In this document: positions 32,430 to 35,480 of the stretch, one piece after another
Layout of the letters: each line of letters starts with the position of its first letter
How positions within the stretch are numbered: position 1 is the stretch's first letter
NCBI GenBank assembly: GCA_015233895.1
Contig: JADFXG010000005.1
Location: 1 to 64,000 of the forward strand
Direction of reading: 5' to 3'
DNA from: Nitrospirota bacterium
GTDB lineage: Bacteria; Nitrospirota; Thermodesulfovibrionia; Thermodesulfovibrionales; Magnetobacteriaceae
DNA length: 64,000 nucleotides
Translations under genes and position numbers: made by a program
Notes under the pieces: model-generated
Seen by the model: only the letters and a program-made list of their open reading frames with translations
Databases searched by the model: none
What the model was told of the DNA's origin: nothing

Positions 32430-33536
32430 ATGTTCTTATCAAAACTGCGAAATCTGAGCCATGAAAAAAGGCAGCGAGTTTTCACATATTCGCTTATAAT
32501 TGCAGCTCTGTATACGTTAATCATTGTTTTTTCAGCTTCGATGATGTATCACAATCGCGCGCTTTCAGATGCAAAACATAAACTGAGGATGAGCCCTACC
32601 GGAGCTGAGCCAGGACGAACACCACCGGATCCACTGCCTGCAACAGGCAACTATGCCACGGTTAAAACAGGCACCTACGTTGAAGACGTTGACAACTTGT
32701 CAATTAAAGACAGCATGTGGAGCGTCAATTTTTATATATGGTTTTCATGGCAAGGAGATGCTAAGCTCGACCCCGGAGGTAAACTTGTAGTTGTCGATGG
32801 CGTGGTAAACAAAAAAGAGCTTTTGGAGGATTACCATGGCAAAGACGGCATCAATTACCAGAGATACAGGATTTCTGCAAAGATAATCAAGTTTTTCGAT
32901 ACAGCCCGTGTGCCTATAGAAGACCACATGCTCAATATCTACGTGGAGGATGGCTCAAGGGATGGCACAAAGCTCCGGTATGTGGCCGATGAAACCTCTA
33001 ATATTAGTTCAAGGTTGAATATTCCCGGCTTTAAAATCACAGGCTTCAGCAATGTAGTTAAAACGCATACTTATAAATCAAGTTATGGTGATCCGAGAGT
33101 TTCCTCTGACAGCAAAAAAGTATTCTCACAGTATATAGCTGCGGTCCGGATTAAGCGGATAGATTTCGGATTTTATCTCAAAATCTTTCTCTCTTTGTTT
33201 GCCGCACTGTTGCTTACCCTTTCCAGCTTTTTTATCAAACCCTCCGATGTAGGGCCTCGCTTTGCTTTACCTACGGGCGCATACTTTGGCGCTGTGGCTA
33301 ACACCTACCTTGCTAATTCACTTTTGCCCACCTCTGGTTCATTCGGACTGGTGGACCACGTGGCAGGGATAGGCCTCTTTACTATTTTTATCTCGATAGC
33401 CGTCTCACTGCTTTCCAACTACTACGCCCGCATGGAGGATAAAGAGCTTTCATTAGCTCTGGACAGAATAATGTTTTTGGTGGTGGGTATATGTTGTGTT
33501 GCTGCTAATATTATTATTCCATGGTGTGCCAGATAG
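32430..33536 (+). CDS. Pentameric ligand-gated ion channel homologue (Cys-loop superfamily, prokaryotic type)
   Basis: The residue order matches prokaryotic pLGICs such as GLIC. After an N-terminal hydrophobic helix (18-39), an extracytoplasmic beta-domain (about 85-245) contains FSWQGDAKLDP (loop D-like W/D motif, Trp107/Asp110), VPIEDHMLNIYVED in the place of the FPFD...L.I Pro-loop (161-174) and GFKITGFSNVV (200-210). Four membrane helices follow: M1 247-269, M2 277-297, M3 308-329 and M4 343-365. The M2-M3 turn LLPTSGSFGLVDH matches the LP..SY...D loop of the family. The Cys-loop disulfide is absent, as in other bacterial members. The usual Pro in M1 is missing. A strong GGAGG precedes the ATG. 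The ligand is unknown, and the gene overlaps the next frame. Confidence 0.8.
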   Translation: MFLSKLRNLSHEKRQRVFTYSLIIAALYTLIIVFSASMMYHNRALSDAKHKLRMSPTGAEPGRTPPDPLPATGNYATVKTGTYVEDVDNLSIKDSMWSVNFYIWFSWQGDAKLDPGGKLVVVDGVVNKKELLEDYHGKDGINYQRYRISAKIIKFFDTARVPIEDHMLNIYVEDGSRDGTKLRYVADETSNISSRLNIPGFKITGFSNVVKTHTYKSSYGDPRVSSDSKKVFSQYIAAVRIKRIDFGFYLKIFLSLFAALLLTLSSFFIKPSDVGPRFALPTGAYFGAVANTYLANSLLPTSGSFGLVDHVAGIGLFTIFISIAVSLLSNYYARMEDKELSLALDRIMFLVVGICCVAANIIIPWCAR

Positions 33537-34461
33537 AATGCCCTTAACGCCTGTCCCAAACTCAGAAGCACACAACATATTTATACTCACATCACTGATT
33601 TGGATATTTTTAGCAGCCTATTGGATATTTAAGTACAGTAAAATCTCCTATGGCTATCCGGCTGACAAATCTCAACCCGTTCCGTATGAAGCGGCTTATA
33701 TGAAAAAAGGCAGAAATCATGCCGTCACGGTTTGTTTGTTTGATTTAATACAAAGAGGCTATATTGTTGTTGATGAGGCAAAAGATTTGACAGCTACGGG
33801 AAACACTGAGGGCTTAAACACAGCTGAGAATGCGTTAATAGATACAGTCCGTGTAAAGTCCTCAATTGCTGGAATATTTGCTCAGCGTGATCAGCTAAAA
33901 CGCTTTGAATATTATACACTCCGCTCTCTTACAGTAAAGGGTTTGATAAAAGATTCAAAAGAGACAAACCGCTTTTGCAAAAACCTGCGGATGTTTGCCA
34001 TCATTTCGGCTATTGCCCTTACGGCAGTTAACCTGTATCTGGAGTTTCCTGCTGGCGAAGGGATGATGTTGTTTTCACTCTTAGTGCCGGCAATTGCTTT
34101 TATATCTTCATATGTAATGCAAAGGACAACAATAAAGACAAATAGAGGTAAGGCATATTTAACCCATCTGGAGAATAAAATAGCAGCTTCTAACCACGTA
34201 TCAGGTTCAGATGGACATTATGACCCAACCCTAAGTTATGCTGTAGCAGTGCTGGGTATGGCTGTGTTAGCGGGTACGGTATTTAGCGGCATATCGGAGG
34301 CAATTTATTATCACGGAGGGGCTGCAGGGAGCAGCGGCGGGTGTAGTGGCTGTTCTTCAGGCGACATTGGCTCTGGCAGCAGCTGTAGTGGCTGCTCCTC
34401 TGGTGATAGCGGCGGAGACAGTGGCGGATGCAGCGGCTGTGGCGGCGGTGGTGGAGATTAG
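33496..34461 (+). CDS. TIGR04222-type membrane protein with a Gly/Ser/Cys tail
   Basis: The protein has an N-terminal helix (about 25-47), a soluble domain rich in helices (about 55-165), three helices (about 166-184, 189-208 and 248-266) and a low-complexity tail (274-321) of Gly, Ser, Asp and Cys. All six tail cysteines lie in three CSGC motifs at 283-286, 297-300 and 312-315. The longest frame overlaps the channel gene by 41 bases; an ATG at 33538, two bases after that gene's stop, is the likelier start. The next gene is a radical SAM/SPASM enzyme, so the tail could be its substrate. The family assignment rests on this layout and tail type. Confidence 0.7.
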   Translation: MLLLILLFHGVPDRMPLTPVPNSEAHNIFILTSLIWIFLAAYWIFKYSKISYGYPADKSQPVPYEAAYMKKGRNHAVTVCLFDLIQRGYIVVDEAKDLTATGNTEGLNTAENALIDTVRVKSSIAGIFAQRDQLKRFEYYTLRSLTVKGLIKDSKETNRFCKNLRMFAIISAIALTAVNLYLEFPAGEGMMLFSLLVPAIAFISSYVMQRTTIKTNRGKAYLTHLENKIAASNHVSGSDGHYDPTLSYAVAVLGMAVLAGTVFSGISEAIYYHGGAAGSSGGCSGCSSGDIGSGSSCSGCSSGDSGGDSGGCSGCGGGGGD

Positions 34462-35480
34462 ATTCCCCTGTGCTTAAAGTGTGGGGATTTGACGGGCCTT
34501 TTTATCTGCAGTGGCACATCACTGAGCATTGTAACCTTAACTGCATACACTGCTACAGGGAGGGAAACGCTGCTGAACCAGAGATATCCGCTTTGATGGG
34601 TGTACTAAAAAACTTTAACCGGTTTTTAAAGTCAATCCACAAAAGGGGTAGAATTCAGATAAGCGGCGGCGAGCCTTTCTTGTCAGAGCATTTATTTTCA
34701 ATACTTATGGAGGCTAAAAAGAGCGGCTATCCAATCCGGGTGCTTTCAAACGGGACTGTAATGTCTAAAGATTTAGCAAAACGACTGAATGAGTCAGGGT
34801 GCCGTATTGTTCAGGTGTCTTTTGAGGGCTCTGAGGAAATTCATGATAAAATCAGAGGGATTGGTTCCTTTAAAAAGGCTCTTGACGGCACAAAGATACT
34901 GTGTGAGGAAAATGTCGAGGTGACTGCCATGATGACCGTATCAGACATTAATTATAAGGCATTAACAGAAACAATTAAACTTACCACTCCGTATATACGA
35001 CGTTTTGCTTTTTCGCGGCTTGTGCCGTGGGGGAGGGCTTTGACACTTGCTGATTCTATGTTGACAACAAAACAGGTAAAAAGTCTGTTCAGGGAATTTC
35101 ATAAATTAAACTTAAATACTGAAAATCAAAAAGGTGCGGAGGTATCAAAGACGTATCGGGACCCTTTGTGGCAGGGGTTTTTTGGAAAAGTAAACCCGCT
35201 CCTTTTAGGCGGCTGTTCAATTGGCTACAATGGAATATGCGTTGACACCGATGGCACAGTGTATCCGTGCAGGCGGCTTCCGGTCTCTCTTGGCAATGTG
35301 CACGATACGGATTTAACTGAGATATGGAAATCTGAGATTTTACGGGAACTCAGAAACCGGGACTTATTAAAAGGTAAATGCAGAGGGTGTAAACTTAGGT
35401 GGCAGTGCGGAGGATGCAGAGCCATAGCGTATGCCAAGACGGGTGATTATCTATCTGAAGACCCGCAGTGCTTTAATTAA
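34428..35480 (+). CDS. Radical SAM/SPASM domain protein
   Basis: The radical SAM cluster motif CxxxCxxC (CNLNCIHC, Cys35, 39 and 42) is followed by the SAM-binding GGEP motif (near 75). The C-terminal SPASM domain has cysteines GGCSIGYNGIC, YPC, a CxxCxxxxxC group (CRGCKLRWQC), GGC and a last Cys near 349, enough for two extra [4Fe-4S] clusters. SPASM enzymes typically modify peptides at Cys or other residues. The longest frame overlaps the Cys-tail gene by 34 bases; a GTG at 34470 is an alternative start. No separate short precursor peptide is seen, which points to the CSGC tail as candidate substrate. Confidence 0.88.
   Translation: MQRLWRRWWRLDSPVLKVWGFDGPFYLQWHITEHCNLNCIHCYREGNAAEPEISALMGVLKNFNRFLKSIHKRGRIQISGGEPFLSEHLFSILMEAKKSGYPIRVLSNGTVMSKDLAKRLNESGCRIVQVSFEGSEEIHDKIRGIGSFKKALDGTKILCEENVEVTAMMTVSDINYKALTETIKLTTPYIRRFAFSRLVPWGRALTLADSMLTTKQVKSLFREFHKLNLNTENQKGAEVSKTYRDPLWQGFFGKVNPLLLGGCSIGYNGICVDTDGTVYPCRRLPVSLGNVHDTDLTEIWKSEILRELRNRDLLKGKCRGCKLRWQCGGCRAIAYAKTGDYLSEDPQCFN

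Follow-up and report, generated by a model that had tools for sequence, protein, structure and literature searches.

Gene organisation of the locus

The window, that is, the whole 64,000-nucleotide stretch of DNA that was analysed, carries a gene for a TIGR04222-type membrane protein, referred to here as the carrier, followed directly by a gene for a radical SAM/SPASM enzyme (Table 1). An earlier note, prepared from the DNA sequence alone, had claimed both identities, and both were borne out. The carrier scores 52.7 bits against the TIGR04222 profile, above the NCBIfam cut-off of 43 (DUF2207_C scores 32.9 bits, with a cut-off of 33), and has the Ser/Gly-rich, cysteine-containing C-terminal region that is a trait of TIGR04222 membrane proteins; in the enzyme, the Radical_SAM (PF04055) and SPASM (PF13186) domains are both above cut-off.

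Table 1. Positions of the features at the carrier-enzyme locus, in nucleotides of the window unless given as carrier residues.
Feature	Position	Strand	Basis or remark
TIGR04222-type membrane protein (carrier), 307 aa	33538..34461	+	TIGR04222 profile, DUF2207_C, alignments
Site of ~650 nt deletion relative to G001	33540-33597		same short carrier form in G003
Carrier membrane and cytoplasmic part	33574..34296	+	hydropathy, AF2 model
Transmembrane (TM) segment	residues 13-31		
Helix-helix-hairpin domain	residues 49-133		
TM segment	residues 150-168		
TM segment	residues 176-194		
Weak hydrophobic segment	residues 235-253		hydropathy
C-terminal Cys/Gly/Ser tail with three CSGC motifs, proposed modified segment	34324..34458	+	sequence, codon constraint
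Radical SAM/SPASM enzyme, 336 aa, proposed tail modifier	34470..35480	+	PF04055, PF13186

The AF2 model of the carrier (pLDDT 79) comprises helices at residues 49-57, 59-73, 140-168 and 174-196 and strands at 76-78 and 84-86, with residues 230-256 modelled as short broken helices and the tail as disordered. A Foldseek search with this model returned no significant match, so the suggestion that the carrier's cytoplasmic helix-helix-hairpin domain resembles RiPP recognition elements is purely speculative. Alignment revealed that the window carrier is without the N-terminal DUF2207-type domain that is present in relatives: compared with G001, some 650 nt encoding a signal peptide and this domain have been lost in the window and in G003. 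Since the tail and the enzyme were kept despite the deletion, the N-terminal domain is dispensable for the pairing. Directly 5' of the carrier, at 32430-33536, lies a gene for a membrane protein of 368 aa that weakly resembles ligand-gated ion channels (TIGR00860, 19.9 bits); of four genomes examined from the same genus, three have this gene in the same position.

The radical SAM CxxxCxxC cysteines of the enzyme (C21, C25 and C28) and its SPASM cysteines (249, 267, 304, 307, 313 and 334) are invariant in 32 relatives. The two genes had been described in the earlier note as overlapping, which is probably not the case. Relatives of the enzyme start with the sequence V/M/I-L-[KR]-[VI]-x-GF, corresponding to GTG 34470 in the window, and an in-frame stop in G002 rules out an earlier start; the supposed overlap probably arose because the first ATG (34428) was chosen as the start. 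With the conserved start located 8 nt after the carrier stop, the genes abut rather than overlap.

The enzyme matches no named equivalog, the nearest types being SbtM (TIGR04082; 174 bits, cut-off 350), rSAM_ACGX (TIGR04340; 175.8 bits, cut-off 400) and the heme b synthase AhbD (TIGR04545; 171.4 bits, cut-off 500). As AhbD is among these nearest named relatives, a peptide substrate is not fixed by sequence alone. The AF2 model of the enzyme (pLDDT 91) has SkfB, SuiB, anSME and CteB as its nearest folds, with SkfB being the closest solved structure. That these closest solved folds belong to enzymes modifying peptides or proteins counts for a tail substrate, whereas the lack, in the model, of a separate N-terminal domain fit for peptide recognition counts against it.

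The Cys/Gly/Ser tail

The carrier open reading frame ends in ...GGCSGCSSGDIGSGSSCSGCSSGDSGGDSGGCSGCGGGGGD. As the earlier note had stated, its tail holds six cysteines, all of them in three CSGC motifs; these fall within the last 45 residues, amid Gly, Ser and Asp. Cysteine is strongly concentrated here, with six in the last 50 residues against two in the other 257 (Fisher p = 3e-4). Comparison of the window with its nearest relative, G003, revealed eight synonymous differences and one nonsynonymous difference in 40 tail codons, as against 29 synonymous and 31 nonsynonymous in 267 body codons. Among 28 carriers from several phyla, with identities down to 20%, only C298, C301 and G302 of the final CxxCG are invariant, although part of this invariance stems from the choice of sequences, since most had been picked up with the TIGR04222 profile or as neighbours of the enzyme and the tail-less protein of G015 was left out. 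Judged from the codon differences and the invariant CxxCG, the tail is conserved and under constraint.

The tails are otherwise diverse. They contain between two and nine cysteines, with spacings of 2, 4, 5, 6, or 18-23 between pairs, and are of the types CGGCGGCGG, CSSCSSCSSC, or Gly-rich with spaced cysteines. The smallest in the window's family have four cysteines arranged as two pairs, and those of a second enzyme group are often Cys-x4-Cys, with L160 and L179-L181 as exceptions. The co-variation between CxxC motif number and enzyme for which the earlier note had proposed a search was not seen as any simple tracking; a single enzyme clade spans a wide range of both cysteine numbers and spacings.

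No Cys-rich small open reading frame adjoins the pair (the gaps are 8 nt within it and 23 nt to the following gene), which agrees with the note's claim that a separate precursor peptide is absent. The separate small precursor peptide gene by which RiPP systems are recognised is therefore missing from this locus.

Co-occurrence of tail and enzyme within the Nitrospirota

The association of tail and enzyme was examined in a sample of 396 genomes of the phylum; Candidatus Magnetobacterium casense and Ca. Magnetominusculus are among its named records. Every Cys-tailed TIGR04222 locus in this sample has an adjacent radical SAM/SPASM gene, so that homologous tails without the enzyme, a finding that would have spoken against the tail as substrate, were not seen. 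Three gene orders occur: carrier-enzyme, enzyme-nucleotidyltransferase-carrier and nucleotidyltransferase-carrier-enzyme. In the window's own family (f1, 19 genomes) the Cys tail is present in 12 genomes and the enzyme in the same 12, where it scores at least 529 bits; in the remaining seven no enzyme hit exceeds about 200 bits, individual absences being weakened by the incompleteness of some of these genomes (G012 88%, G017 75%). One relative (G015) has lost the Cys tail of its TIGR04222 protein and has no enzyme either, and in G030 only the 3' part of the carrier remains, behind the enzyme. Conversely, DUF2207-type proteins with a visible Cys-free, Gly-rich tail (G090 and G381) have no radical SAM/SPASM neighbour, in a negative set that is small (G090 is near a contig end, and the tail of G400 is cut off by one).

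Several other features of these neighbourhoods were observed. In one Nitrospirota family (L024:9092-9856 and L025:9779-10540) the nucleotidyltransferase-like gene separates the enzyme from the carrier, and in another (L046) it precedes the carrier. The loss of the tail in G015 (L031:7684-10169) lies beside an inserted two-gene module resembling a toxin-antitoxin pair. Magnetominusculus-type genomes (L021:5673-6743 and L023:12003-13169) encode, 5' of the carrier, a second protein whose N-terminal cysteines are SPASM-like, in some cases with a sigma factor-like gene in between.

Distribution beyond the phylum

The earlier note had also proposed that the same gene pair be sought in other genomes. 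When species genomes were scanned for the enzyme first and the hits then searched for tails, the pair was found in about ten phyla, bacterial and archaeal, and on at least two unrelated carrier families, most of the loci being from MAGs, some of them incomplete. Pairs were found in Auribacterota, Planctomycetota, Lentisphaerae, Elusimicrobia, Riflebacteria, Zixiibacteriota, Thorarchaeota, Clostridia and Bacteroidia. The carriers are TIGR04222/DUF2207-like, contain a TPM domain, or are of no known family, and all end in Cys/Gly/Ser tails. The TPM domain was identified in clostridial carriers L140, L156 and L163, whose architecture L136 shares; the carriers of L102 and L104 matched no Pfam family. 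Pairing of the enzyme with an unrelated peptide, the other outcome that would have told against the proposal, was not seen; the other carriers, including those with a TPM domain, bear the same kind of tail. A later profile search of Clostridia with the enzyme only, conducted after the family had been defined, yielded three further enzymes above 330 bits, all three with a CSSC/CGGC-tailed neighbour.

Mapped onto a tree of 104 enzymes, the state of being paired requires four changes, against about 31 when labels are shuffled, with none of 500 shuffles as low. The clade of the window's enzyme is paired in all of its 23 rows (support 77), a second group in 12 of 13, and a third (f26), which branches with SbtM-type enzymes, in three of three; the tree is the product of a quick search, and its deep branching is uncertain. 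One second-group enzyme, on a MAG contig (L132), has no adjacent tail gene.

Two further loci were recorded during this work. At L118:1999-2220, a small open reading frame after an ACGX-like radical SAM gene has nine cysteines in its last 50 residues (CDLCGCGGGCSCSIGC...) and looks like a classical precursor peptide. In a Paceibacterota MAG (L143:1855-2301), a 149 aa open reading frame with a Ser/His/Cys-rich end adjoins a related radical SAM gene.

Membrane side of the tail

In the TPM carriers a signal-like segment is followed by the TPM domain, a single TM segment and a basic stretch, an architecture that would place their tails in the cytosol, and the strongly basic segment before the tail of L104 suggests a cytosolic location there also. 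Some carriers (L096-L103) have one clear TM segment immediately before the tail. In the window carrier, residues 235-253 are ambiguous by hydropathy; the AF2 model, which breaks this segment into short helices, favours a cytosolic tail. If the segment does span the membrane, the tail would be periplasmic and away from a cytosolic enzyme unless modified before insertion, which counts against the proposal developed below.

A proposed two-gene system for tail modification

Since the same pairing of tail and enzyme recurs across about ten phyla and on unrelated carriers, the enzyme very probably modifies the tail. The earlier suggestion that a membrane-protein tail serves as the substrate is strongly supported by comparative genomics, in the form of co-occurrence, co-loss and recurrence on unrelated carriers. 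The whole can probably be explained as a minimal two-gene system, in which the enzyme modifies the tail and the product is retained on the membrane carrier. The TIGR04222-type protein would be a resident of the inner membrane, and its disordered tail, with CxxC motifs set in Gly and Ser, would be the substrate of the enzyme encoded directly downstream, which would act on the tail cysteines and/or their Gly/Ser neighbours. The modified tail would then remain on the carrier with no release of a peptide, and may have a metal-binding or redox role, as we infer.

The tails also constrain the likely chemistry. Those such as that of L104 have only Cys and Gly near the end, and a reaction on them must use Cys and/or Gly, which makes a Cys to C-alpha thioether or a Cys-derived heterocycle more plausible than cross-links of the type found in freyrasin, which join Cys to Asp. 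Thioethers from Cys to Gly/Ser or Cys-derived heterocycles would fit the tail sequences best, the likeliest product being a thioether between the Cys sulphur and the C-alpha of Gly or Ser, with the heterocycle as second choice.

It is conceivable that the CxxC tail is instead an unmodified metal- or Fe-S-binding or redox module, serving the enzyme as a partner (a donor of electrons or clusters, or a means of membrane recruitment) while the enzyme acts on another substrate. CxxC pairs are classic ligands for metals and Fe-S clusters, the minimal four cysteines in two pairs would suffice for one cluster or zinc site, and the gene pairing would appear identical. Nevertheless, the cysteines vary too much in number (2-9) and spacing to form a fixed site, the pair has no other conserved neighbour that might be a substrate gene, and TIGR04222 tails are elsewhere tied to a different family of peptide-modifying enzymes (PMC12452194), so this explanation is considered unlikely. 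Less likely still is a released RiPP, for which the carrier would act as a large membrane-bound leader from which a protease frees the modified Cys peptide; the tail is indeed a disordered, core-like C-terminal segment in the model, as in RiPP precursors, but neither a protease nor a peptide exporter is a conserved neighbour of the pair, and the carrier itself is a multi-pass protein of full length, with a tail that is short and C-terminal in every lineage.

An incidental linkage of the tail to an enzyme of heme or tetrapyrrole synthesis (AhbD/NirJ-like), or to some other metabolic radical SAM enzyme, seems very improbable. Although the TIGR04545 (AhbD) and NirJ models score 130-171 bits with the enzyme, this is far under curated cut-offs of about 500; moreover, the enzyme family is missing wherever the tail is missing, and the linkage is kept in about ten phyla, in several gene orders and with different carriers. 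With tail modification preferred over these alternatives, a broader proposition is considered to have a somewhat better than even chance of being correct, namely that this is a widespread two-gene system for permanent radical SAM modification of tails on resident membrane proteins, that it is an alternative to MNIO on the same carrier family, and that the tail module has moved among unrelated carriers (TIGR04222/DUF2207, TPM and others) in bacteria and archaea. If so, radical SAM peptide chemistry would reach from small secreted peptides to membrane-protein tails, TIGR04222 proteins without MNIO would gain a partner enzyme, and, the system having just two genes, an obscure low-complexity tail would become accessible to mass spectrometry.

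Comparison with known systems

That TIGR04222 tails are enzyme substrates is a proposal already published for MNIO (DUF692) enzymes, in which a Cys/Ser/Gly-rich tail is paired with a neighbouring enzyme, the tail of MNIO-associated members being predicted to be periplasmic (PMC12452194). This was the only paper that a literature search for pairing of the tail with radical SAM enzymes turned up, and its text makes no mention of such a pairing (PMC12452194). The present system shares with it the carrier family and a Cys/Ser/Gly-rich tail as the proposed substrate of a neighbouring enzyme, but differs in that the enzyme is of the radical SAM/SPASM type and MNIO is missing from the genome. MNIO (PF05114) was absent from 39 of the 40 genomes tested, G000 included (24 of 25 Nitrospirota and 15 of 15 others), the sole hit being a borderline one of 25.1 bits on a separate contig in G003. 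MNIO is thereby ruled out as the modifying enzyme in the tested genomes, and the radical SAM enzyme appears to be an alternative partner for the TIGR04222 carrier family.

With respect to enzymes, the maturases SbtM (TIGR04082) and rSAM_ACGX (TIGR04340) are the nearest named SPASM families, although SbtM has a long N-terminal extension that the window enzyme lacks. QhpD, a radical SAM enzyme that makes thioethers inside a full-size protein, provides a precedent for a protein substrate (PMC8172795); its substrate is a dehydrogenase subunit with Asp/Glu acceptors, whereas several of the tails described here are without any acidic residue. The sactipeptide and ranthipeptide maturases SkfB, CteB and PapB share both the radical SAM/SPASM fold and a Cys-rich substrate with the proposed system, but they act on small precursor peptides, whereas in the present system a membrane protein bears the Cys segment as its tail.
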